Assembly: GCF_900112415.1 (NCBI RefSeq)
Contig: NZ_FOLV01000008.1
Coordinates: forward strand, 1-64,000
Length of the DNA: 64,000 nt
Source: Bacillus sp. 491mf
GTDB lineage: Bacteria; Bacillota; Bacilli; Bacillales; Bacillaceae_G
Reading direction: 5' to 3'
Part shown: positions 9,825 to 53,198 of the stretch, piece after piece
Layout: every line of letters starts with the position of its first letter
Numbering within the stretch: the stretch's first letter is position 1
Notes under the pieces: generated by a model
What the model was told of the DNA's origin: nothing
Database searches by the model: none
What the model saw: the letters and a program-made list of their open reading frames with translations, nothing else
Program-made: the position numbers and the translations under genes

Positions 9825-10010
9825 TCCTCATCCTCCCGTTAACATGAATGTTCTTGTATCATTTTATTACAAACGTGGAGAATAAATGATGATTGTTTCT
9901 TATTATTATCACTATTAAACCAATGGAGTAAAATATAATTTTCATCCTAAGGCTAAGATTATTTTTGGGTTTGCTGTTTGTTTCATGTAGTTTTGAAATA
10001 AAGTTTGATA
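9825..10010. other. Upstream region of DUF2515, no gene seen
   Basis: AT-rich sequence between the DUF2515 start and an orphan hairpin. No supported open frame on either strand. Confidence 0.3.
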
Positions 10011-10055
10011 AAAAATATCCTCTTCGGTAGTATATCTGTAAGAGGGTATTTTTTA
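10011..10055 (+). terminator. Orphan terminator hairpin
   Basis: AATATCCTCTT pairs with AAGAGGGTATT and is followed by TTTT on the + strand, yet no + strand gene precedes it. It may be left over from a lost gene. Confidence 0.5.
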
Positions 10056-10108
10056 CTTTTCTGAATTTTCTTAGGTGTTATATTTTATAAATCCAAAGTT
10101 AGGTATGT

Positions 10109-10251
10109 GAAGAATATGCAAAAGAAAATCCGGATGTGAAAGGAGTGGCGAAAGAAAATTTATTTATTTAAGTGATACGATTACCAGGAGAAAATATATA
10201 GTTGCAGAGGTTTATTCAGCGAATGGAAAAAGAGTCAATATTATAAAGTGA
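10109..10251 (+). pseudogene. Possible gene relic ending in bcr1
   Basis: Two adjacent frames look like protein: EEYAKENPDVKGVAKENLFI followed by a stop, then DTITRRKYIVAEVYSANGKR... in another frame, ending at a TGA that lies inside the bcr1 end (ATAAAGTGA). No start codon or intact frame remains. It is best read as the frameshifted tail of a lost gene, not identified. Confidence 0.35.
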
Positions 10252-10397
10252 AACTTTAATCAGTGGGGGTTCCTCATCCCCCACTGATTATTAGTTGAAC
10301 CAATCGGGCTTTTACGGACAGTTATCCTCCACCTATCTTCTTCGCTTCTCTCTCAATCTTGAGGTGGGGGTCTTACTGTCCGTTAATGCGGGATAAA
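10243..10397. repeat. bcr1-type repeat, full length (155 bp)
   Basis: Bounded by ATAAA at 10243-10247 and 10393-10397. It begins GTGAAACTTTAATCAGTGGG and ends TGTCCGTTAATGCGGG, with an inner hairpin (CCACCT.../AGGTGGGGG) and an outer one (AATCAGTGGGGG/CCCCCACTGATT). The 155-bp length and the ATAAA (TTTAT) flanks agree with the bcr1 element described in the B. cereus group. Confidence 0.85.
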
Positions 10398-10469
10398 GGT
10401 TGAAAGAGAGAATCTTTAGATATGTAAGGGCAGATAAAAAGATATTCCACCAACTAAAGGGGTGAAGGT

Positions 10470-11159
10470 ATGGCTAAAAAAACACATATTTTAGTAGTTG
10501 AAGATGACAATGAGATTAATCAATTACTATGCAATATTATTAGGAAAAATGGATATTCCCCCCAACCTGTTTTCTCCGGAACTGAAGCAGTTATTTATAT
10601 TGAAAAACAAGATTGGCAATTAATACTCTTGGATTTAATGCTCCCAGGTATGGATGGGGAAAGGATATTAGAAAAAATAAGTGACACAAAGCAAACACCT
10701 GTAATTATTATTTCAGCTAAAGGAGAGCTACAAACAAAAATATCAGCTTTACGAGGGGGAGCCGACGATTTTATCACTAAGCCTTTTGATATTGAAGAGG
10801 TTTCTGCAAGAATTGACTCACACTTACGAAGATACAATCGTTTAAAAGAACCTATGTTCACTAACCGTTTACAATATAAAGATATTTATTTAGACATGGA
10901 TACGAAGACTGTATATGTTAATCATTCATTACTCTCTTTAACAGCTAAAGAATATGCCATTTTAGAACTCCTCATGTCTTATCCTAAAAAGGTCTTTACA
11001 AAAATGAACCTATTTGAAAATGTATGGGGAGAGGAATTTTTAGGGGATGACAATGCGATTAATGTTCATTTGAGTCATTTAAGAAAGAAACTACTGGAGG
11101 CTAATCCAGATGGAGAATATATTGAAACGATTTGGGGTATGGGATATCGATTGAAATAA
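10470..11159 (+). CDS. OmpR/PhoB-family response regulator
   Basis: A 229-residue two-component regulator. The receiver domain has the acidic pocket VVEDDN, the phospho-acceptor Asp55 in LILLDLMLPGMDG, and the conserved Lys in DFITKPFD. The C-terminal winged helix includes LTAKEYAILELLMSYPKKVFTK and ends GMGYRLK. Its probable partner is the kinase at 13087-14001, separated from it by an ABC exporter pair, an arrangement typical of peptide-antibiotic sensing and resistance systems in Firmicutes. It probably activates the promoter at 11213-11260. Confidence 0.93.
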   Translation: MAKKTHILVVEDDNEINQLLCNIIRKNGYSPQPVFSGTEAVIYIEKQDWQLILLDLMLPGMDGERILEKISDTKQTPVIIISAKGELQTKISALRGGADDFITKPFDIEEVSARIDSHLRRYNRLKEPMFTNRLQYKDIYLDMDTKTVYVNHSLLSLTAKEYAILELLMSYPKKVFTKMNLFENVWGEEFLGDDNAINVHLSHLRKKLLEANPDGEYIETIWGMGYRLK

Positions 11160-16444: not shown

Positions 16445-17497
16445 TTAAGATTTTAAAATTTCTACTAACCGCTCTAACGGCAATGCATGTACTTGTCTCT
16501 CTTTTTGTCCAGTTATCGTTTCTGCCATACACATAGAATTAACAATTGCTTCTTGAACAGATTCAATCGCCGCTTCAAAAATAAAATCTAACTGTTCTGA
16601 TGGAAACATATTGATAGGATAAGGTGTTTCATTATCGTAAGAATAGCAATTCCCCGTTGAAAAAGTAAGGAAGAAATCCCCGCTTCCTTCTTCTCCGATA
16701 CCGCCTAATTTAGCCATTGCTAGCGATGCTCTTTTTGATATCCTTTCACATTGTGAAGGTAATAACGGTGCATCCGTTGCTACTGTAACGAGAAGAGAAC
16801 CTGCATTTTCCGGGGTACTCCACGGTAATGCCACTTCCATTTCATTTAATATACTGCCAACGGGTTTATGATTCATAATAAAATCTTCTCTTCTACCAAA
16901 ATTGGTTTGTACAAGAGCACCGACTGTGTAAGTCCCAGATTCACATTCAATAATGCGAGAAGAAGTACCGATACCGCCTTTAAATTCAAAACAAATCATT
17001 CCTGTACCGCCGCCAACATTTCCTTCTTCGATTACGCCAGATTTAGCATGAAGGATTGCTTCTTCTAAATCTTCGTATGTCATGGATGTTTTTTCTAAAT
17101 CACTTAACCATCCATCCCACGTCTCTGCTACTATTCCATTTGAGAAAGGTTCTAAATTTTCAATTCTTCTTGTAGCACGCGAAAGAAAATGATGTGCTAA
17201 TCCAAGTAAATGACTGCCAGTGAAAACAATCGGAGTTACTAAAGTACCTGTTTCATCAATCCAATGACTTCCTGTGAATTCACCCGTTCCATTAAAAGAA
17301 AAAAAGCCTGCTGGAAAATGCGATCCAGCTAGATTCCCGTTGTTAGGTAGAATAACGGTAAGTCCGGAACAAACATCCTTATCTAAAATCGTTTTGTGAC
17401 CGACGATTACACCTTCTACATCTGTAATCGCATTACATATTCCTGGTTTTAATTTTCCGATATGAATATCTAAATCTCTTAGTCTTTTTCTTTGCAT
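16445..17497 (-). CDS. P1 family peptidase (DmpA-like aminopeptidase)
   Basis: A 350-residue protein of the DmpA/BapA family. It has GNVGGGTGMICFEFKGGIGTSS around residues 159-180; in this family the chain cuts itself just before a Ser in this segment, which becomes the N-terminal nucleophile. The start DLDIHIGKLKPGICNAITDVEGV is also typical. No signal peptide is present, so it should work in the cytoplasm as an aminopeptidase or beta-peptidyl amidase. It starts a minus-strand unit with the NIPSNAP gene. Confidence 0.88.
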   Translation of the reverse strand: MQRKRLRDLDIHIGKLKPGICNAITDVEGVIVGHKTILDKDVCSGLTVILPNNGNLAGSHFPAGFFSFNGTGEFTGSHWIDETGTLVTPIVFTGSHLLGLAHHFLSRATRRIENLEPFSNGIVAETWDGWLSDLEKTSMTYEDLEEAILHAKSGVIEEGNVGGGTGMICFEFKGGIGTSSRIIECESGTYTVGALVQTNFGRREDFIMNHKPVGSILNEMEVALPWSTPENAGSLLVTVATDAPLLPSQCERISKRASLAMAKLGGIGEEGSGDFFLTFSTGNCYSYDNETPYPINMFPSEQLDFIFEAAIESVQEAIVNSMCMAETITGQKERQVHALPLERLVEILKS

Positions 17498-17593
17498 TGT
17501 AGACCCCTTAAATAATATGTATTTTATATATTAGTAACGAAGAATATATAATATTTTCATTCTATTCCATTAATTAGGAAAATTCAATTGTTT

Positions 17594-17646
17594 ATAGAGC
17601 AAAACTTCTAATGATGGAATTTTACTGTCTGTTAATACATGATAAA
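17594..17646. repeat. Degenerate short bcr1-type repeat (53 bp)
   Basis: ATAGAGCAAAACTTCTAATG ... TACTGTCTGTTAATACATG-ATAAA aligns along its length with the 54-bp copy at 13007-13060, with about one third of bases changed. It looks like an old copy. Confidence 0.5.
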
Positions 17647-17647
17647 C

Positions 17648-17695
17648 ACAAAAAAGAGGTTATTGAGCGTTATATTCAACAACCTCTTTTTAAAA
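17648..17695. terminator. Bidirectional hairpin, copy of the clpP-side hairpin
   Basis: AAAAAAGAGGTTATTGA pairs with TCAACAACCTCTTTTT. The arm resembles the hairpin next to clpP at 24826-24859 (AGAGGTCATTGAAC), and both lie a few bases after a clpP stop codon. Confidence 0.7.
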
Positions 17696-17697
17696 AA

Positions 17698-17787
17698 TTA
17701 ACTGATAATTCCGTCTGCAACACCATTCACTTTTGCCTCTTCTGCTGCTAGAGATAATAACTGCACAACAACATTGCTAGGATCATT
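17698..17787 (-). pseudogene. clpP relic with internal deletion
   Basis: The minus strand reads NDPSNVVVQLLSLAAEEAK then VNGVADGIIS and a stop. It matches the intact ClpP at 24868-25443 in two blocks: residues 38-55 ([20 protein letters not shown]) and 176-191 ([16 protein letters not shown]). The join falls at the similar motifs SAEDA and SAEEA, so about 124 codons are missing. No start codon is in frame; a stop lies directly upstream. It is dead, but it records an extra clpP copy. Confidence 0.7.
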
Positions 17788-17814
17788 TTATCCCCTTCAC
17801 GATAATCAATAAAT

Positions 17815-18660
17815 CTACATAGATTTTCCTTTCAAAATAAGTTCTGTTTTCAAACTATCCTTCGGTAACAACCAACCTTGCTTTTGCAAGGCTTGAATAA
17901 ATAATTCCCTTTGTTTCCTAGCTGTTTTTTCATCATTAACTTTAAAAGAGACTTCAACAATATAATCCTCTTCTTTATTTCCGGTATGATCTAGCGGCCA
18001 AACTTCTATATCTGTATTCAATTTATTATATTTTCCTTGATATCGATCAACTAACACAGGTCCAAAAATATGAGATTGATTCAATATATTTTTAGCCCAA
18101 TTTTTATATAGCCAATTATTCATTTTGTCTGGAAGCTTATCAATCATCATTTTCCTTGCTTCCTTTTCCCCTGGTAACTGAAGCAGACCATATCCTTTTG
18201 CTTGGTGACTCTTTTTATTAGAAATGCTTAATGTTTTCTTTTCAAATCCCCAATCAATTTGCGCTTCATAGTTATTAGATTTTTGGTCAAAGCCTACCTT
18301 TTTTGCTAGTACTAATGCCTCTTGAATATCATCATTTTGAATTGGATATCTTTTCTTATATGTTAGTTCGAAGTCTTGTTCTGACTCTTTCTTCCGAATC
18401 CTTGCTGTCCACCCTGCATCATATAAATCTTTTTCATTCGTATCTAAAAATTGTACATTTATCTTTTCCGAACTTGAACTAGCTTGAAAATATTCTAGTA
18501 CAGATTTGTTTAATTTTCCTTTATCGTTTATTACTTGTTCCGGTTTTAATAGTAGCTTTACTTCAAAATTTGGCTCCATTACACTTGCTGCCCCTACTCC
18601 GTTCATGCCATATAAATATAAAGAAAAGAAACTGATACAAATACAAATAAGCTTTTTCAC
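17815..18660 (-). CDS. Exported CYTH-like domain protein
   Basis: A 281-residue protein with a signal peptide (MKKLICICISFFSLYLYG, probable cleavage after GVGAA). The mature part has the pattern of the CYTH/triphosphate tunnel fold: FEVKLLL near residue 33, WTARIRKK near 84 and FELTYKKRYP near 97, then YIVEVSFKV late in the chain. CYTH proteins (CyaB, thiamine triphosphatase, YgiF, bacillary YjbK) bind triphosphates or polyphosphate and are normally cytoplasmic, so a secreted one is unusual. It closes the ABC-transporter operon, 18 bp after the MBL gene. The fold call is by eye and needs structure prediction. Confidence 0.6.
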   Translation of the reverse strand: MKKLICICISFFSLYLYGMNGVGAASVMEPNFEVKLLLKPEQVINDKGKLNKSVLEYFQASSSSEKINVQFLDTNEKDLYDAGWTARIRKKESEQDFELTYKKRYPIQNDDIQEALVLAKKVGFDQKSNNYEAQIDWGFEKKTLSISNKKSHQAKGYGLLQLPGEKEARKMMIDKLPDKMNNWLYKNWAKNILNQSHIFGPVLVDRYQGKYNKLNTDIEVWPLDHTGNKEEDYIVEVSFKVNDEKTARKQRELFIQALQKQGWLLPKDSLKTELILKGKSM

Positions 18661-18678
18661 AAAATCCTCCCCCTTATA

Positions 18679-19932
18679 TTATTTAAAACTTATTTCTTCA
18701 GCTAAAGTAGCCGAATAGATGTGTTTAAATCCACATTCCATTAATTTCTGTTGTAATTGATCAGTATCGTTTTTAGATGCATGAACGAGTAAAGTATATT
18801 GGGGCGATATATTTTGAAGCATTCCCTTAACTTCTTCTATGCCTTGGTGAACTTTATATGGAATATATTGAGTATTAAGTCCTCGTCCATTTTTTATTTT
18901 TTCTGCGAAACTTCCTTTTGCGATATTCCCTGTAAAAATAATGGTATTACGATTGTCCGTTTTTAATTGTTTGTACAAAATCTTCGCATCATCTGTCTGC
19001 ATATTTGCATCCCGTATAAGAATGATTTGTGCACAATTATTCTTTTGCAGTTTTATCCTTCCGTTTATTAGGAATATATTCCGTACCTCTGTATCTTTTT
19101 TGGGAAACACATTTTCTTTTAGCCATTCTGTATATTGTTTCATTTTTTCTAAACCATTTTTTATTTCGCTATCTACGAGTATAGGGATCTCATGATATCG
19201 TTTTTGTAAGAGCATTAATAAATCTTGAGCTCTGCCTAATGGAGGAACGGGTAATAAAACTGTACCATTCTTTCTTAATGTTTCGTCTATTTCATCAAAT
19301 AGCTGGAAAATTCGTTCCTTCTGAGACGTACAATCTGTATGATATCCAGCGTCCAGAATCGCTAATTTTATAGATTTTTTTAAATTCGTAGGTAAATCAG
19401 CTCGTAATAAACATGATTCTGGTGTATAGTCTCCAGAATAAAAAACATACGCTCCGTTCATATCCACTAAAAACCACACAGCCCCTAACACATGCCCACT
19501 ATATCCCCATTGAAAACGTAAGCTAGATGTAACATCAATCCACTCATTTGGGCGACTCATTTGATCAATACATATATAATCTAAATTTTCTATATCATAT
19601 TGATTATATGGTAAGTCTTCTCCTTTTTCTTTATTGTAGCTTTTCCATTTTTCAAAATATAATGGGAGCTGCTGCAGTGTATAACTAGTGATCCAAATTT
19701 TTTTCTTATATCCATATTTAGTTAAAAGCGGAAGCCCCATTGTATGATCTTCGTGAATATGGGATATGAAAACTGCTTGTAAAAATGGGATGGTTTCTTT
19801 TTCTATTTTGGGATAACAATCTGTACAAGAGCGATGAATGCCACAATCAAACAGAAGCGTTTCCGCTTTATTCTCTATAAAGTAGCAGGACCGTCCATAT
19901 TCTCCAGCTCCTCCCCACACTTTCACTCTCAT
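18679..19932 (-). CDS. MBL-fold protein with beta-CASP-like domain
   Basis: A 417-residue cytoplasmic protein. The metal site is SHIHEDHTMG (residues 57-66), with YSGHVLGAVWFL and YSGDYTPE supplying further ligands. A second domain follows with PVPPLGRAQDLLMLL, and the end has YKVHQGIEEVK and YTLLVHAS, the layout of the beta-CASP family (CPSF73, RNase J and related nucleases). Its ATG at 19932 overlaps the permease stop as ATGA, so it is translated with the transporter. It could cut nucleic acid or a phosphodiester; why it sits in an uptake operon is unclear. Confidence 0.75.
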   Translation of the reverse strand: MRVKVWGGAGEYGRSCYFIENKAETLLFDCGIHRSCTDCYPKIEKETIPFLQAVFISHIHEDHTMGLPLLTKYGYKKKIWITSYTLQQLPLYFEKWKSYNKEKGEDLPYNQYDIENLDYICIDQMSRPNEWIDVTSSLRFQWGYSGHVLGAVWFLVDMNGAYVFYSGDYTPESCLLRADLPTNLKKSIKLAILDAGYHTDCTSQKERIFQLFDEIDETLRKNGTVLLPVPPLGRAQDLLMLLQKRYHEIPILVDSEIKNGLEKMKQYTEWLKENVFPKKDTEVRNIFLINGRIKLQKNNCAQIILIRDANMQTDDAKILYKQLKTDNRNTIIFTGNIAKGSFAEKIKNGRGLNTQYIPYKVHQGIEEVKGMLQNISPQYTLLVHASKNDTDQLQQKLMECGFKHIYSATLAEEISFK

Positions 19933-21608
19933 GAACTTATTCCTTTCTTTTTTTCTTGTAAATATTGAAGAAGTAACAAACAAAGTGTAGTTAGCCCTAC
20001 TGAAGCGACAGCCATAGCCATGCCTACCGAAACATTACCTTGTTCAAACTGGGCAAAAATAAATGTTGCTGATGTTTCCACAGATGGTGGTACTACAAGA
20101 AGTGATGCGACCAATTCTCGTATCGAAATAATAAATGTCATGGCCCACCCAGCAAGAATACCCGGAACAATAAGTGGCATGATAATCTTCCGAAATATAT
20201 ATAATGGGCTTCCAGAAAATATATTTCCAGCATATAGAAGCGAATCATCAATTTGTCCTAATGAAGCTTTCACATATTGCACCGTGTATGGTAAAAAGAG
20301 TACAACATATGTAACGATAACCATAACCGATGTATTATAAATTGGAAGCGGCATAAATGGTGCGTTCCAAAATAAAATGAGCCCTACAACCATAACAATA
20401 CTCGGAACTGTATTGGGTAAAATACCGCAAATATCAATAAATTTTTCTGATACTTTCTTTCCCTTTCGAATTATGAGTGCTAAAAATACACCGATAATTG
20501 TTGCTATAAATGCTGTTATAAACGAAAAGATGAAACTATTCCATAACGCTTTCATTCCTGGAGATCCATTTGCAAATAATGCTTTATAATGAACTAGGGA
20601 GAAATTATCAAAGTGTAAGCCCCCGCCTCTCAATTTGGAGAAAGAGGCAATCAAAATTGAAAAATATGGTATACCGATTGCAACGACGAGTAAACATACA
20701 ACATATCCCCATGCTAAAATGCGAGAAGTACGAGAAAGAGCGTACGTTTTGGACCTTACTCCTTTCCCGCTTACCATTGAATAGGAATACTTTTGACTTA
20801 GCACATTTTGTATGTACCAAATCACCATACAAGCGCTTAATAATAAAGAAGATAAGGCTGTCGCACTTCCGAAATCAATAGGCCAGCTTGATATGAATTT
20901 ATGAATCTCTGATGTTAATACGTGAAAACCGATTCTTTTCCCAAAGGTTGCTGGTGTTCCAAATTCCGCGATCGTTTTTACAAAAATAAGGAGCGCTCCC
21001 ATCGCATAACTTGATAACAGTAATGGAAAGACAATCTTCCTTAACCAATATGCAAAATTCCCCCCATGAACAGCAGCAGCTTCCTCTTTACTGCTGCCAA
21101 TTTGAAGTAACGTATTTTTTAACATAAAGTATAAGAATGGAAATAAGTGCAAACTCATAATGAGAACCATACCACCTAAACTAAAAAAGGAAGCTGACAC
21201 TGTTTTCAAAGATGGAAAGAACTGCTCAAAGTATCCATTAGGTTGCATAAACAAAATCCAACCCATCGATCCAATATAAGGAGGTGTCATAAATGGAATC
21301 ATAAAAATAATGTCAAGTTTACGATACTTTCCTATTTCTGTTTTACTCATAATAAACGCAAGTGGCAGTGCAAATAGTGTTGCTTCCATCACAACAAGCA
21401 CACCAAGAAGCATAGAATTCATAAAGACTTCTACTAATCCGCCACTACCAATCACTTCGAATGGTTTCAAAAGATTCCATACACCATCTTCATATACACT
21501 AGACAATAAGATAAGGACAATCGGAATGACAATTAACATTGTCACAAGTAGCAACGCAATCGCCATTCCCAGTTGTTTAACTGATATCATTCGACTTAAC
21601 ATATACAT
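19929..21608 (-). CDS. Double-domain ABC permease (AfuB/PhnU-V/ThiP type)
   Basis: A 559-residue permease with about 12 membrane helices in two similar halves, each with a binding-protein-dependent transport EAA-type loop (IGSSKEEAAAVHGGNFAYWL and IDDSLLYAGNIFSG). This fused form is used for Fe3+, 2-aminoethylphosphonate, thiamine and hexose-phosphate uptake systems. The start is 8 bp after the binding-protein stop; the stop overlaps the MBL gene. It is the membrane channel of the operon. Confidence 0.9.
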   Translation of the reverse strand: MYMLSRMISVKQLGMAIALLLVTMLIVIPIVLILLSSVYEDGVWNLLKPFEVIGSGGLVEVFMNSMLLGVLVVMEATLFALPLAFIMSKTEIGKYRKLDIIFMIPFMTPPYIGSMGWILFMQPNGYFEQFFPSLKTVSASFFSLGGMVLIMSLHLFPFLYFMLKNTLLQIGSSKEEAAAVHGGNFAYWLRKIVFPLLLSSYAMGALLIFVKTIAEFGTPATFGKRIGFHVLTSEIHKFISSWPIDFGSATALSSLLLSACMVIWYIQNVLSQKYSYSMVSGKGVRSKTYALSRTSRILAWGYVVCLLVVAIGIPYFSILIASFSKLRGGGLHFDNFSLVHYKALFANGSPGMKALWNSFIFSFITAFIATIIGVFLALIIRKGKKVSEKFIDICGILPNTVPSIVMVVGLILFWNAPFMPLPIYNTSVMVIVTYVVLFLPYTVQYVKASLGQIDDSLLYAGNIFSGSPLYIFRKIIMPLIVPGILAGWAMTFIISIRELVASLLVVPPSVETSATFIFAQFEQGNVSVGMAMAVASVGLTTLCLLLLQYLQEKKKGISS

Positions 21609-21616
21609 TCACCATC

Positions 21617-22642
21617 TTACTGGAACATTTTTTTAAATTTTTTACTGTCCTCTTCTTGTTCTTTTTGGATTGTTTTCCAATCAATTTGGATTGTTGGAAT
21701 TTCGTCTGTATTTGGCCGTTTCCCAGCTTTCAGATCCTTTCTACCCGGTAACAAATAAGCATCTGAAACAAGCTTTTGTGCTTCATCAGACAATAAATAA
21801 TCAATAAATTGCTTAGCAGATTCCACATTTTTAGCATCTTTCATAATCCCAGCTACACGCGGGCTGATAACTGTTCCGCTTTTTGGATATACAATGTCTA
21901 TTGGTTCACCTTTTTCTTTTGCACTATAAACCATATAATCTACACCAGCTAAGACTATATCCTTTGCACCTGTTATAACTGGGTCTAATGCCTCTTGATT
22001 TGCACCTGATACTGTAGCTTTGTTTTTCTTAATTTGTTCAAATAAATTCCATCCAGCTTCTCCATTCTTTTTTACATAACCTGTTACAAAATCGAGCGCT
22101 GAACCTGATAAAGTTGGATCTGGGATATTTACTTTTCCTTCCCACTCACTCTTCGTCACGTCAGTCCAATCACTAGGCGCTGTTTTTACATTTTTTGTAT
22201 TATAAACAATACCTAGTGCTGAGGCACTATATCCAAAATAATGTCCATTTTCATCAGACCATTCTGGACGAAGTTGATTTACTTGTTTCGCATCTTTATA
22301 CGCCATTGTTTGTCCATCCTTTTTTAATCCTTCCATCGCTGGTAAAGATGCTAAGACAACAACATCAACAACTGGCTTCTTCTTTTCTGCTTCTATCCTC
22401 GCTAAAATCTTTCCAGTTGTTCCTTGAAACATTTCTACTTTTATTCCTGTTTTTTTCTCGAATTCTTTTTGAATTTTTTCTGCCAATTCTTTTGGACCTG
22501 CGCTATACACAACAATTTTCTTTTCATTGTTCTTCTTGCCTTTTGCATTGGTACTGTTCGTTTTCGTGTTACATCCAGTCATTAAAATGGTAATGAGTAA
22601 TGTGCATATGACTACAAACTTATGCCAACTGACTTGTTTCAT
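21617..22642 (-). CDS. ABC transporter substrate-binding lipoprotein
   Basis: A 341-residue binding protein with a lipoprotein signal peptide (lipobox LMTGC, Cys near residue 24). KKIVVYSAGPKELAEKI and FEKKTGIKVEMFQGTTGKIL are typical of the AfuA/FutA/PhnS/ThiB cluster that binds ferric iron, aminoethylphosphonate, thiamine or sugar phosphates. The ATG at 22642 has GGAGGGG and overlaps the ATPase gene by 23 bp. There is no conserved tyrosine pair of the iron binders that I can place with certainty, so an organic phosphate ligand is as likely as iron. Confidence 0.87.
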   Translation of the reverse strand: MKQVSWHKFVVICTLLITILMTGCNTKTNSTNAKGKKNNEKKIVVYSAGPKELAEKIQKEFEKKTGIKVEMFQGTTGKILARIEAEKKKPVVDVVVLASLPAMEGLKKDGQTMAYKDAKQVNQLRPEWSDENGHYFGYSASALGIVYNTKNVKTAPSDWTDVTKSEWEGKVNIPDPTLSGSALDFVTGYVKKNGEAGWNLFEQIKKNKATVSGANQEALDPVITGAKDIVLAGVDYMVYSAKEKGEPIDIVYPKSGTVISPRVAGIMKDAKNVESAKQFIDYLLSDEAQKLVSDAYLLPGRKDLKAGKRPNTDEIPTIQIDWKTIQKEQEEDSKKFKKMFQ

Positions 22643-23612
22643 GTGTTTCCCCTCCAATTGTATGAATACGATTTAACGGTACATATAATGACACCGCTTT
22701 TCCGATACTTAACTTCGTGTTGTGATAGGCAGTCCATATCCCAAGATGCCCCATGTCTACTTTTACTTCATAATGTCCGCCAAGATATGTAACATGTTTG
22801 ATTTGCCCTAAATATGATTGACATACATCGCTTTTCGTCCAACTAATATGTTCTGGACGAATCATTTGTTTATTCTTTACAAGCCAGTTTGTTTTCCCAA
22901 CAAACTGAGCAACGAATTCATGAGAAGGTCGTTCATAAATTTCTTCCGGTCTTCCCTTTTGCAGTACTTCCCCCTGTTTCATTACGATAACTTGATTGGA
23001 CATCGACATCGCTTCTGTCTGATCATGAGTTACATATAATGCCGTTAATCCGATTGATTGTACAATGTCCATGAGCTCCCATCTCATTTCCTCTCGTAAA
23101 ATTGCATCCAAAGCACTTAGCGGTTCATCGAATAAAATAAAATGGGGTTTTGTCACAATCGCCCTTGCAAAAGCGACCCGTTGTTGTTGTCCACCCGATA
23201 ACTCATGAGGATATCTTTTTTCTAATCCTTCTAATCGAACACGTTTAATCGCATCCATCACGTTTTCTTGTAAGCGTTCAGTTTGTTTGGAAGCTCGCAA
23301 GCCAAATGCGACATTTTCAAATACTGTCATATGGGGCCATAAAGCAAAATCTTGAAAAACCATACCAATTCTTCGTTTATGAGGAGATATTTTTACTTTT
23401 TGAAAAGAAGAATATACACATTTATCTCCAAAGTAAATTTCTCCTCCATCTGGTTCCTCCAGTCCCGCAATCATTCTGAGCAGTGTTGTCTTACCACATC
23501 CTGATGGTCCAAGTAATGTTGTGAATTGACCATGTTTCATTACAATATCAAGTGGTTTCAATACTTGAGTTGTTCCATATGTTTTTTCTAATCCACGAAT
23601 ACAAATATCCAT
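22620..23612 (-). CDS. ABC transporter ATP-binding protein (PotA/FbpC type)
   Basis: A 330-residue importer ATPase. Walker A is GPSGCGKTT, the Q-loop lies in MVFQDFALWP, the signature is LSGGQQQR, Walker B and D-loop are ILFDEPLSALD and the switch is VTHDQTEAMS. A C-terminal TOBE-like domain follows. It is the first gene of the five-gene operon and faces the LysR gene across 217 bp. It energises the permease at 19929-21608. Confidence 0.92.
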   Translation of the reverse strand: MDICIRGLEKTYGTTQVLKPLDIVMKHGQFTTLLGPSGCGKTTLLRMIAGLEEPDGGEIYFGDKCVYSSFQKVKISPHKRRIGMVFQDFALWPHMTVFENVAFGLRASKQTERLQENVMDAIKRVRLEGLEKRYPHELSGGQQQRVAFARAIVTKPHFILFDEPLSALDAILREEMRWELMDIVQSIGLTALYVTHDQTEAMSMSNQVIVMKQGEVLQKGRPEEIYERPSHEFVAQFVGKTNWLVKNKQMIRPEHISWTKSDVCQSYLGQIKHVTYLGGHYEVKVDMGHLGIWTAYHNTKLSIGKAVSLYVPLNRIHTIGGETHETSQLA

Positions 23613-23829
23613 TTCCCCACCCTCTTTTTATTCCACTTTTATGACATTGAAAGTTCAAATAAACAATTTCAATTCTATAAATTACACTTTTTGGAACTTT
23701 CTTTCATTTTAACTAAGAAGATTATATACAATGTTAATCCTTCGTAAAGATTGAGTTAAAAAAACTATAAACAACTGTTTATTTCTATAGATTTTTTCTA
23801 TAGTTAAAATAAAAAAGGGAGACTGCTTA
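23613..23829. promoter_or_regulatory. Divergent control region between ABC operon and LysR gene
   Basis: It holds several inverted repeats that could bind the LysR protein: ATAAACA-AC-TGTTTAT at 23767-23782, CTATAGATTTTTTCTATAG at 23785-23803, and a distant pair GAAAGTTC (23649-23656) and GAACTTTC (23694-23701). LysR proteins usually bind dyads of T-N11-A type between divergent genes. Which repeat is used cannot be decided here. Confidence 0.45.
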
Positions 23830-24717
23830 ATGAATCACTTAAAATTAAAAATTATTATACTTGTAAAAAAATACCAGAAACTAACTATCGTAGCTGATAA
23901 ACTGGGTGTTAAGCAGCCGACCATTTCATTTCATATAAAAAGTTTGGAAAAAGAATTCGGAGTCCCTTTATTTGAAGTGAGATTAGGTCGATATTTTTTA
24001 ACAGGAGCAGGTGAAGCATTGTATCATTATGCTTGTAAAATAGATGCGCTTATGAAAGAAGCAAAACGTGTAGTTGCAGAATTTGCGGAGTTTAATAGAG
24101 GTTCTCTCACAATTGGGGCAAGCTATGTTCCAGCAACATATGTGCTGCCACAAATTTTTTATCACTTTCATCATGAGTTTCCAAATGTAAACGTATCACT
24201 TATCGTAAAACCTGCCCCAGAGATCCGTACATTATTACGGAACCATGAAATTGATATTGGTGTTCTTTCAACCGAACCATTTGAAGAAGATACATTAAAA
24301 CAAACAGTTATATTAGAAGATGCGCTTGTACTTGCTTTTTCTCCCAATCATGTATTCACAAAAAAATTGAACATATCACTGCAAGACATTTCGAAAGAAC
24401 AAATTTTGCTTCATCGTCAGTCATCTACAACAAGACGTCTACTCACACAGTGGATGACAGAGCATAATATCGTGTTTCAATCTGAAATTGAACTCGATTC
24501 ACTTGAAACAATGAAACAAATCTTAAAATACGGAAATGGAATTGCATTTATTTCGAAACTGGCCATTGAACAAGAAGTAGAAAGAAATGAACTCTGTTAT
24601 TTGCCCATTCCCGATTTCGAATTACAACGGCATATTTATGCGATTTATCATGAAGACCGCTGGAATTCAAAATTAGTGACCTACTGGTTAGAAGCACTTG
24701 CATCTTTTCCAAAATAA
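23830..24717 (+). CDS. LysR-family transcriptional regulator
   Basis: A 295-residue regulator. The N-terminal winged helix has LTIVADKLGVKQPTISFHIK and LEKEFGVPLFEV; the rest is a periplasmic-binding-like effector domain beginning RGSLTIGASYVPATYVLPQI. Ribosome site GGGAG lies 8 bp before the ATG. The position, divergent from the five-gene operon, implies that it controls that operon in response to the transported compound. The CysB/CysL-like effector domain would bind a small acid or phosphate. Confidence 0.9.
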   Translation: MNHLKLKIIILVKKYQKLTIVADKLGVKQPTISFHIKSLEKEFGVPLFEVRLGRYFLTGAGEALYHYACKIDALMKEAKRVVAEFAEFNRGSLTIGASYVPATYVLPQIFYHFHHEFPNVNVSLIVKPAPEIRTLLRNHEIDIGVLSTEPFEEDTLKQTVILEDALVLAFSPNHVFTKKLNISLQDISKEQILLHRQSSTTRRLLTQWMTEHNIVFQSEIELDSLETMKQILKYGNGIAFISKLAIEQEVERNELCYLPIPDFELQRHIYAIYHEDRWNSKLVTYWLEALASFPK

Positions 24718-24765
24718 AAAAATCAACCAACATTGTACAATAGCAATGTTTAGTTGATTCTTTCT
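24716..24765 (+). terminator. Terminator after the LysR gene
   Basis: AATCAACCAACATTG pairs with CAATGTTTAGTTGATT (one bulge), then TCTTTC. It starts right after the LysR stop. Confidence 0.7.
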
Positions 24766-24825
24766 ACTCTTTATATAAGGTGAAACTTATTCAAAATATT
24801 GACTAGATTGTTTTTCAACAGCATG

Positions 24826-24859
24826 AGAGGTCATTGAACGATATGGTTCAATAACCTCT
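24826..24859. terminator. Hairpin after clpP
   Basis: AGAGGTCATTGAAC pairs with GTTCAATAACCTCT around GATATG. The T-run is on the + strand. A related hairpin follows the clpP relic at 17648. Confidence 0.6.
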
Positions 24860-24867
24860 TTTCAGTT

Positions 24868-25443
24868 TTAACCGATAATCCCATCTACAATACCATATGT
24901 TTTCGCCTCTTCTGCGCTCATAAAGTAATCCCGTTCTGTATCTTTTGCTACTTTCTCAACTGGCTGCCCTGTTTTATCGGCAATAATTTGATTGATATGC
25001 TCTTTTAATTTCAAAATCCGTCTTGCTGAAATCTCAATTTCAGTTGCTTGCCCTTGCGTTCCACCGAGTGGCTGATGAATCATGATTTCACTATTTGGTA
25101 AAGCAAACCGCTTTCCTTCCGCTCCCGATAATAACAATAATGCTCCGAATGAAGCGGCTAAACCAATGCAAATGGTTTGTACATCCGGTTTGATATAATT
25201 CATCGTATCTAAAATAGCAAAACCTGCAGAAGTTGAACCTCCGGGACTGTTAATATAAATAGATATGTCTTTATTTGCATCTTCTGCTGATAAGAATAAT
25301 AATTGGGCCACAACACTACTGGCAACTTGATCATTAATCTCTTGCCCAATCATAATAATTCTATCTTTTAGTAACCGAGAATAAATATCATACGAACGTT
25401 CGCCAAGTTTCGTTTGTTCTATTACATAAGGAATTACATTCAT
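24868..25443 (-). CDS. clpP: ATP-dependent Clp protease proteolytic subunit (paralogue)
   Basis: A 191-residue ClpP with a complete triad at the family positions: Ser98 (GLAASFGA), His123 (MIHQPLGG) and Asp172 ([11 protein letters not shown]). The usual Met after the active Ser is Phe here. The ATG at 25443 has GGAGGG 7 bp before it. B. cereus group genomes have a main clpP and one or more extra copies; this is likely an extra one, since it lies 24 bp behind a sigma factor gene rather than alone. It may degrade targets linked to that sigma factor. Confidence 0.9.
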
Positions 25444-25467
25444 GAAAAATCCCTCCACTATTTTAGT

Positions 25468-51986: not shown

Positions 51987-53198
51987 ATGATGACATTTGC
52001 AAAACGTTACAGTAAACCTATTTGGATTCGGTTATTTGGAGAACTATTAACTAGTATAACCGGAGCGATGCTCGCACTTATTTTTATCATATATGTAAAC
52101 AAAGCATTAAATGGAAACGCCTTGTTTACTATGTTACTTTTTGGGCTACAACCGCTTAGTGAAATTCTCTTTACACTTTTCGGCGGTACTATTACAGATC
52201 GATATGGACGAAAAAGAATTATTTTAATTGGACTACTCTTACAAGCATGCGCTATGACTGGTTTCATTTTTGCCAAATCGGTTATACTGTTCGCTCTCTT
52301 CTACATTATGAATGGTCTAGGGCGTTCTCTTTATATTCCTGCACAACGAGCACAAATTGTAGATGTAACGGAGAAAGAAAAGCAGGCCGAAGTATTTGCT
52401 CTTATTCAAACAGTTGGAGCTATTGGGGCAATCATTGGCCCAGCCATTGGATACCTTTTTTATAATGATAATCCAACCATACTTTTTATCTTAGAAGCCG
52501 CTGCTTTATTTCTTTATTCGTTTATTGTATGGACACAACTTCCAGAAACAGCTCCAATCCTTCAACATGATGAACAAAAAAACACTTCAATAAAATGGAG
52601 AAATTTTCTCACGCAACATTATAGCGTGTTTGGACTTATGATTTTTATGTTACCAATTAGTTTTTTCTATGCACAAATAGAAACAAACTATCGACTATAT
52701 GCCGAAAAGGAATTATTCACGAATTTTATGTTTGTTTTTACATTTATGGCTACTTGTAAAGGTATTATGGAGATTGTTTTGCAAGTGGGAGTCGTAAAAT
52801 GGGCGGAGAAATTTTCTATGCAAAAAATTATTGTAATCTCTTATGTTTGTTATACGATTGCTGCAATTGGTTATGGCTACTCTAATACATTATGGTTACT
52901 ATTTTTCACACTATTAATCTTAACAATTGGAGAAAGTATCGCTTTAAATCATCTGTTACGTTTTGTTTCAGAATTAGCGCCAACACATATGCGAGGAATT
53001 TATTTCTCCATTTACGGTACCCACTGGGATATCTCACGAATGCTCGGTCCAGCAGCCGGAGCGTTATTATTACAACACTTCAGCGGGAGTTTCTTATTTA
53101 ATATGTGCGCCGTTATTCTGATCATTGGCGGCACGTGTCAATATCTGTTTATAAATTATATTCTTAAACAAGACAAATCAAAAAGGCTGTCCGCATAA
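51987..53198 (+). CDS. MFS exporter
   Basis: A 403-residue protein with 12 membrane helices. Motif A is GGTITDRYGRKRI in loop 2-3; GPAIGYLFYN is in helix 5. The type is that of drug or sugar efflux MFS proteins such as YfmO/MdtG or SetA. AAAGGAGAG precedes ATGATG. It faces the SgrR-like gene across 100 bp and is presumably under its control. The substrate is unknown. Confidence 0.87.
   Translation: MMTFAKRYSKPIWIRLFGELLTSITGAMLALIFIIYVNKALNGNALFTMLLFGLQPLSEILFTLFGGTITDRYGRKRIILIGLLLQACAMTGFIFAKSVILFALFYIMNGLGRSLYIPAQRAQIVDVTEKEKQAEVFALIQTVGAIGAIIGPAIGYLFYNDNPTILFILEAAALFLYSFIVWTQLPETAPILQHDEQKNTSIKWRNFLTQHYSVFGLMIFMLPISFFYAQIETNYRLYAEKELFTNFMFVFTFMATCKGIMEIVLQVGVVKWAEKFSMQKIIVISYVCYTIAAIGYGYSNTLWLLFFTLLILTIGESIALNHLLRFVSELAPTHMRGIYFSIYGTHWDISRMLGPAAGALLLQHFSGSFLFNMCAVILIIGGTCQYLFINYILKQDKSKRLSA

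Follow-up and report, generated by a model that had tools for sequence, protein, structure and literature searches.

A conserved gene set of Bacilli combining an ABC transporter, a beta-CASP hydrolase and an exported CYTH-like protein: a candidate phosphoester-scavenging system

Results

Organization of the operon and its divergent regulator

The window analyzed here, a stretch of 64,000 nucleotides from contig NZ_FOLV01000008.1 of Bacillus sp. 491mf, harbors five minus-strand genes facing a divergently transcribed lysR gene. In the direction of transcription, the operon encodes an ABC transporter ATPase of the PotA/UgpC-like type with a TOBE_2 domain (22620..23612), a solute-binding lipoprotein (SBP; 21617..22657), a fused double permease with two BPD_transp_1 stretches (19929..21608), an MBL-fold beta-CASP hydrolase with an RMMBL domain (18679..19932) and a CYTH, or triphosphate-tunnel, protein with a GTG start (17815..18660) that presumably carries an N-terminal signal sequence. 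The LysR-type regulator lies on the plus strand at 23830..24717, and the gap between lysR and the ATPase gene contains, at 23787..23801, the palindrome ATAGATTTTTTCTAT (ATAGA-N5-TCTAT), a proposed LysR operator. Pfam placement was clear for all of these products except the CYTH protein, which scored below the cut-off and was assigned on the basis of its predicted fold. The SBP gene has a probable ATG start at 22642 and encodes a lipobox cysteine judged by eye to be Cys29, and the MBL gene starts with ATG at 19932 within an ORF reaching back to a TTG at 19983. The compact layout described in the initial annotation, with a 23-bp overlap, an 8-bp gap, an ATGA overlap and an 18-bp gap between successive genes, was confirmed in the sequence. 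A search of plasmids for near copies of the 17000-25000 region found none. A T-box-like Rfam match at 16664-16911 (21.5 bits versus 93) was dismissed as chance.

Conservation of the gene set in Bacilli

A contig scan with three CYTH proteins as queries returned 20 loci. In four Paenibacillus loci (L005, L006, L008, L009) the transporter, MBL and LysR genes adjoin the CYTH gene, and in a Tissierellia locus (L022) the CYTH gene, in two frames, is followed by the ATPase, SBP and permease genes and then by a metallophosphoesterase gene. No transporter set was seen at the other 15 loci, some of which end at a contig edge (L019, L020, L021). In L016-L018 the exported CYTH gene adjoins a phytase-like gene, the domain scan covering L016 only.

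Next, 398 Bacilli genomes were searched with a profile built from 18 CYTH proteins. At a limiting e-value of 1e-8, matches were obtained in 31 genomes, including a partial one of 71 positions (G136) and one with internal stops (G318). Inspection of all 31 neighborhoods revealed that the ATPase, SBP, permease and LysR genes adjoin the CYTH gene in 26 of them, 25 of which also carry the MBL gene; in the remaining one (L064, genome G220) a metallophosphoesterase gene takes its place. The CYTH gene occurs without the transporter in five neighborhoods (L055, L056, L057, L065 in G318 and L068 in G136). When the genes of 34 loci were clustered, the six cassette genes were each present in 28 to 33 loci, and the next gene cluster in 12.

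In the reverse search, an SBP profile with an orthologue threshold of E 1e-90 or better identified SBP orthologues in 39 of the same 398 genomes, 26 of which are the CYTH carriers. The 13 SBP loci lacking CYTH comprise 11 with an MBL gene and two with a metallophosphoesterase gene (L122, L123); the MBL gene of L126 was a tblastn match, free of stops and 31% identical to the window protein. Neighbors at loci without CYTH, such as Fic, chlorite dismutase and CAAX protease genes, looked unrelated. An ATPase orthologue accompanies the SBP at all 39 transporter loci, LysR was detected at all of them except L123, and every locus has a phosphoesterase gene beside the transporter, which is of the MBL type in 36 cases and of the calcineurin type in three. 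The CYTH gene is found in 26 of the 39 SBP carriers versus five of the 359 other genomes (Fisher p about 3e-26, uncorrected for kinship among genomes). Its position relative to the transporter varies: it is last in the operon in the window and in L058, L060, L062, L063, L066 and L067, lies behind lysR on the opposite side in L005, L006, L008, L009, L059 and L069-L084, is tail-to-tail with the operon in L061, convergent with lysR in L064 and first in the gene order in L022. The persistence of this linkage despite rearranged gene orders is evidence for joint function.

The gene set is therefore real and conserved. The expectation that the accessory genes would stay next to the transporter in related genomes was borne out (MBL at 36 of 39 loci, CYTH at 26 of 39), with a difference in rank between the two: the MBL gene belongs to the core, the other three loci having a substitute phosphoesterase, and the CYTH gene is an accessory component. 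A phage origin of the CYTH gene was rejected, as a phage collection contained no match to it. A limited literature search found no paper on this gene combination, which apparently is undescribed to date.

A palindrome in the lysR/ATPase gaps

The gap between lysR and the ATPase gene was compared in the window and 21 further loci, with significance assessed through mononucleotide shuffles; L022, L069, L071-L084, L117, L120, L121, L123, L125 and L127 were left out of this comparison. The ATAGA-N5-TCTAT palindrome is exact in 13 of the 22 gaps and has one mismatch in two more; the remaining seven (L059, L062, L063, L066, L067, L122, L126) match it at chance level only. Since L005 and L006 are closely related, the 13 exact palindromes are not all independent events. 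LysR sites follow a T-N11-A rule, with which the spacing of the palindrome would be compatible, and we propose that LysR regulates the operon through this element.

Upstream of 30 CYTH genes the palindrome was exact once, 122 bp upstream of the separately transcribed CYTH gene of L061 (0/200 shuffles), and had one mismatch twice, 108 bp upstream of the gene in L058 (2/200 shuffles) and upstream of that in L019 (4/200 shuffles). The best matches in the remaining 27 regions had two to four mismatches, both at stand-alone CYTH genes (including L007, L010-L018, L020, L055-L057) and at those behind lysR (including L005, L006, L008, L009, L059, L069-L072, L075, L078). Hence, most CYTH genes lack a site of their own, the case for their co-regulation draws mostly on position, and those located behind lysR or at the operon end may be transcribed by read-through.

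Proteobacterial relatives and substitute hydrolases

Nine loci, eight annotated and one (L147) without annotation, were opened from lists with 268, 12 and 58 records; many entries in the longest list belong to other beta-CASP proteins such as aCPSF1. The SBP-permease-ATPase-MBL set recurs on proteobacterial plasmids, with the same genes in a different order in L137. It is followed by a SurE 5'/3'-nucleotidase gene in Nitratireductor (L004), Aminobacter (L136) and Phyllobacterium (L138), and by a histidine phosphatase gene in Enterobacter (L003), Paracoccus (L137, L146), Pacificitalea (L144) and Phaeobacter (L145). An additional HAD phosphatase is encoded in L144 and L145, the latter matching the PNKP phosphatase domain, and Na/Pi cotransporter genes come next in L004 and L138. 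The regulators are of the Sugar-bind type in L004, L136 and L138 and of the DeoR type in L144 and L145, which suggests a sugar-phosphate signal in some Proteobacteria.

The hydrolase at three of the 39 transporter loci of Bacilli is an ApaH-like calcineurin phosphoesterase. For the substitute enzymes of L022, L064, L122 and L123 the top model is symmetrical bis(5'-nucleosyl)-tetraphosphatase, scored below its cut-off, and those of L022, L064 and L123 also score, more weakly and again below cut-off, against polynucleotide kinase-phosphatase.

The solute-binding protein and its probable ligand class

The closest solved relatives of the SBP are the binding proteins P5PA (pyridoxal phosphate) and AfuA (sugar phosphates), with iron-binding proteins next; phmmer scores against the AfuABC and P5PA binding proteins were 88.8 and 88.1 bits. 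We know of no AfuABC or P5PA system with beta-CASP, LysR or exported CYTH partners, all of which are found as extra components in the window operon. The importers of Pasteurellaceae and Enterobacteriaceae nevertheless share with it the binding protein family, the transporter type and a phosphate-holding motif, although the window SBP is distantly related. PMC8427247 describes Thr37 of P5PA (Ser37 in AfuA) and Ser147-Gly148-Thr149 as holding the phosphate. In the alignment, with residue numbering matched by our own count and Thr and Ser treated as equivalent, these residues correspond to Thr81 and Ser184-Gly185-Ser186 of the window protein, and all 13 distant SBPs compared keep Thr81, Ser184 and Gly185. 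The essential hexose contacts of AfuA, given as His205, Asp206 and Glu229 in PMC4546632, align instead with Val243, a gap and Ser265. Since the phosphate motif is kept and the hexose contacts are absent, the SBP is likely to bind a phosphate group and unlikely to bind hexose phosphates in the manner of AfuA. Structure prediction for this protein was poor (pLDDT 57.5).

As to the ligand, nucleotides or short products of RNA degradation seem the best candidates, because SurE, the PNKP-type phosphatase, the Np4N-hydrolase-like substitutes and beta-CASP proteins all come from nucleotide-acting families. Each of these families also includes members with other substrates. Import and internal hydrolysis might also operate as proposed on a sugar phosphate, glycerophosphodiester, inositol phosphate or vitamin phosphate, an alternative that deserves serious but minority weight. 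It is consistent with the sugar phosphate and pyridoxal phosphate ligands of the nearest characterized binding proteins, with the Sugar-bind and DeoR type regulators of some Proteobacteria and with the phytase-like neighbor of CYTH in L016-L018, and is countered by the replaced AfuA contacts and by the company of SurE, PNKP-type HAD, Np4N-hydrolase-like and RMMBL-containing beta-CASP enzymes, which lean to nucleotides.

The exported CYTH protein

The window CYTH protein scored 16.6 bits against the Pfam CYTH model, below the gathering cut-off of 23.2, and yet its predicted structure is a full CYTH, or triphosphate-tunnel, fold, so that the initial assignment of the last gene product to this fold is upheld by the model. 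E33, K35, R87, R89, K102, E219, E236, S238 and K240 are invariant in 17 diverse members, R87 aligning with the catalytic Arg. The ExExK motif, which has both Glu residues in hydrolytic tunnel enzymes, reads Asn31-x-Glu33-x-Lys35 in the window, and its first position is Glu in just one of the 17 members and Asp in five. A short profile comparison with two YjbK-like proteins was uninformative; a deeper profile alignment was full-length but weak (E 3e-4, 38% probability) and aligns E236 and S238 with the first and second Glu, respectively, of the C-terminal ExE. Two acids of the second metal site thus seem to be missing from the subfamily (replaced by Asn31 and Ser238 in the window), which, together with its export and its sub-threshold Pfam score, sets the window protein apart from AtTTM3, ygiF and the YjbK-like proteins (3sy3, 2gfg).

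With these acids replaced, binding is more likely than hydrolysis, and the exported protein may bind phosphate chains while hydrolyzing them poorly or not at all. Of the two roles suggested beforehand for the secreted protein, processing or binding a phosphate-containing molecule, the apparent changes at the second metal site favor the second. That it is instead an active extracellular triphosphatase, trimming NTPs, tripolyphosphate or RNA 5' ends to suit the importer, we regard as rather unlikely: the full predicted tunnel fold and the invariant R87, K102, E33 and E236 would fit such an enzyme, and the scarcity of Glu at the first ExExK position and the apparent invariant Ser at the second position of the C-terminal ExE argue against it. 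This activity would be compatible with a nucleotide or a non-nucleotide ligand.

The MBL/beta-CASP hydrolase

Both the Beta-Casp and RMMBL domains score above the Pfam cut-off in the window MBL protein. Residues H58, H60, D62, H63, H147, D168, D194, H362 and H384, which we take to represent the HxHxDH motif, the motif 3 His, the motif 4 Asp and the beta-CASP motifs A, B and C, show no variation across 14 Bacilli sequences; with the exception of H384, they are also invariant in a set of ten that includes six proteobacterial ones. Judging from these alignments, the metal ligands and beta-CASP motifs are intact. The closest relatives by sequence are the RNases CPSF73, aCPSF1 and TTHA0252, which share the HxHxDH, His147, Asp168, Asp194, His362 and His384 motifs and both domains; the window protein differs in being encoded within an uptake operon and in scoring far under the cut-off of the aCPSF1 (FttA) NCBIfam equivalog (142 versus 580 bits). 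Given these relatives and the motif C His kept in the 14 Bacilli sequences, the protein could be a true RNase that tunes the mRNA of its own operon, but the calcineurin-type substitutes at three of 39 loci and the extra phosphatases of Proteobacteria point to small-molecule dephosphorylation and make this improbable.

Equivalog models of the transporter

The window proteins share a transporter superfamily with the putative 2-aminoethylphosphonate importer models PhnS2, PhnT2 and PhnU2 and score below the curated cut-off of all three NCBIfam equivalogs (128 of 393, 307 of 458 and 127 of 593 bits, respectively). Scores were likewise below the curated cut-offs for the thiamine model TIGR01254 (68 of 93 bits) and the ferric ATPase model, and assignments to iron, 2-aminoethylphosphonate and thiamine were therefore set aside. 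An ordinary Fe3+ or 2-aminoethylphosphonate importer lying beside unrelated genes, as the iron ABC transporter permease label given automatically to relatives, the top-ranking PhnU2 and PhnS2 models for permease and SBP and the several iron-binding PDB relatives of the SBP might suggest, is very improbable in light of PhnS2, PhnU2 and PhnT2 scores far under cut-off, the hydrolase gene kept or replaced at 39 of 39 loci and the lack of any annotated phosphonate-cleavage gene in the eight proteobacterial neighborhoods that carry annotation.

Discussion

The anatomy of the cassette lends good support to a generic model of phosphate-ester uptake followed by internal hydrolysis. On balance, we consider that the cassette probably constitutes a phosphoester-scavenging system of this kind, with a nucleotide or short RNA fragment as the likeliest ligand. 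From the gene content and the residues described above we infer the direction of transport, the ligand, the enzymatic activity, the regulation by LysR and the role of CYTH. The lipoprotein would capture a small phosphorylated organic molecule via its phosphate group, the ABC permease and ATPase would import it, and the cytosolic beta-CASP metallohydrolase would hydrolyze the phosphate ester, with release of phosphate and the organic moiety; the ApaH-like calcineurin phosphoesterase would assume the hydrolase role at three of the 39 loci. Outside the cell, the exported CYTH protein, found at most of the Bacilli loci (26 of 39), might hold or present polyphosphorylated, triphosphate-like forms, for which a binding role is more likely than a hydrolytic one. 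The originally proposed division of labor among outside handling, import and inside hydrolysis fits the gene set, with the amendment, suggested by the second-site acids, that the outside step is more likely binding than hydrolysis. A bolder and distinctly speculative version would see here a hitherto undescribed nucleotide- or RNA-fragment-scavenging system of Gram-positives, in which a catalytically disarmed exported tunnel protein catches triphosphate-bearing molecules outside the cell for a dedicated ABC importer, and an RNase-like beta-CASP enzyme, turned into a phosphodiesterase for small molecules, breaks down the cargo inside.

Phosphorus scavenging is mostly viewed as the work of extracellular enzymes that remove phosphate ahead of uptake. 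If the proposed phosphoester-scavenging function holds, this conserved operon would take up a phosphorylated molecule intact and cleave it within the cell, and would include an exported tunnel protein that resembles a binder. It would also assign a function to a transporter group whose relatives carry iron or phosphonate importer annotations, and would provide what is, to our knowledge, the first setting for an exported non-canonical CYTH protein.

CYTH genes in other loci

Genes for exported CYTH proteins are also found away from the transporter. In L016-L018, from Undibacterium and a Burkholderiales MAG, an exported CYTH protein encoded at about 9900-10800 is 44-46% identical to the CYTH protein of the window, and the transporter is missing; the gene adjoining it is phytase-like, as determined by a PF13449 match in L016 and by membership of the same gene cluster in L017 and L018. 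Five Paenibacillus loci (L011, L012, L014, L015 and L021) present a conserved series of ATP-grasp, pentapeptide and HAD 5'-nucleotidase (NT5C) genes followed by a stand-alone exported CYTH gene, with domains scanned in L011. A protein with a CYTH-like N-terminus, annotated as a histidine phosphatase, is encoded on a Paenibacillus plasmid (L002, 10001-11284) next to serine peptidases, and a relative in Priestia (L001), which carries no signal sequence, is likewise surrounded by peptidase genes. In the transporter-linked locus of a Tissierellia MAG (L022, 9947-10836), the CYTH gene is divided over two frames.

Cassette edge and palindrome-like sites in the window

Directly downstream of the CYTH stop codon, a short minus-strand stretch (17704-17790; LAAEEAKVNGVADGII) resembles the C-terminus of ClpP (10/16 identical, E 0.1), and an intact clpP lies at 24868-25458, on the opposite side of the cassette. 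This stretch is possibly a trace of the route by which the cassette was inserted, as judged from a weak sequence match. The window also holds two further ATAG-N7-CTAT sites, at 52677 and 54063, neither of which has the full ATAGA-N5-TCTAT form.

Proteobacterial versions of the operon

A proteobacterial version, as seen in L003 (5201-10610), comprises genes for the solute-binding protein, permease, ATPase, MBL protein and a histidine phosphatase. Versions of this type were found in four Enterobacter plasmid records from human or hospital sources, the gene neighbourhood having been read in one of them, the record named as a VIM plasmid (L003). Na/Pi cotransporter genes adjoin proteobacterial operons in two further loci (L004, 11156-12820; L138, 7981-9645), and these cotransporters could provide an exit route for phosphate, if the cargo loses phosphate inside the cell.
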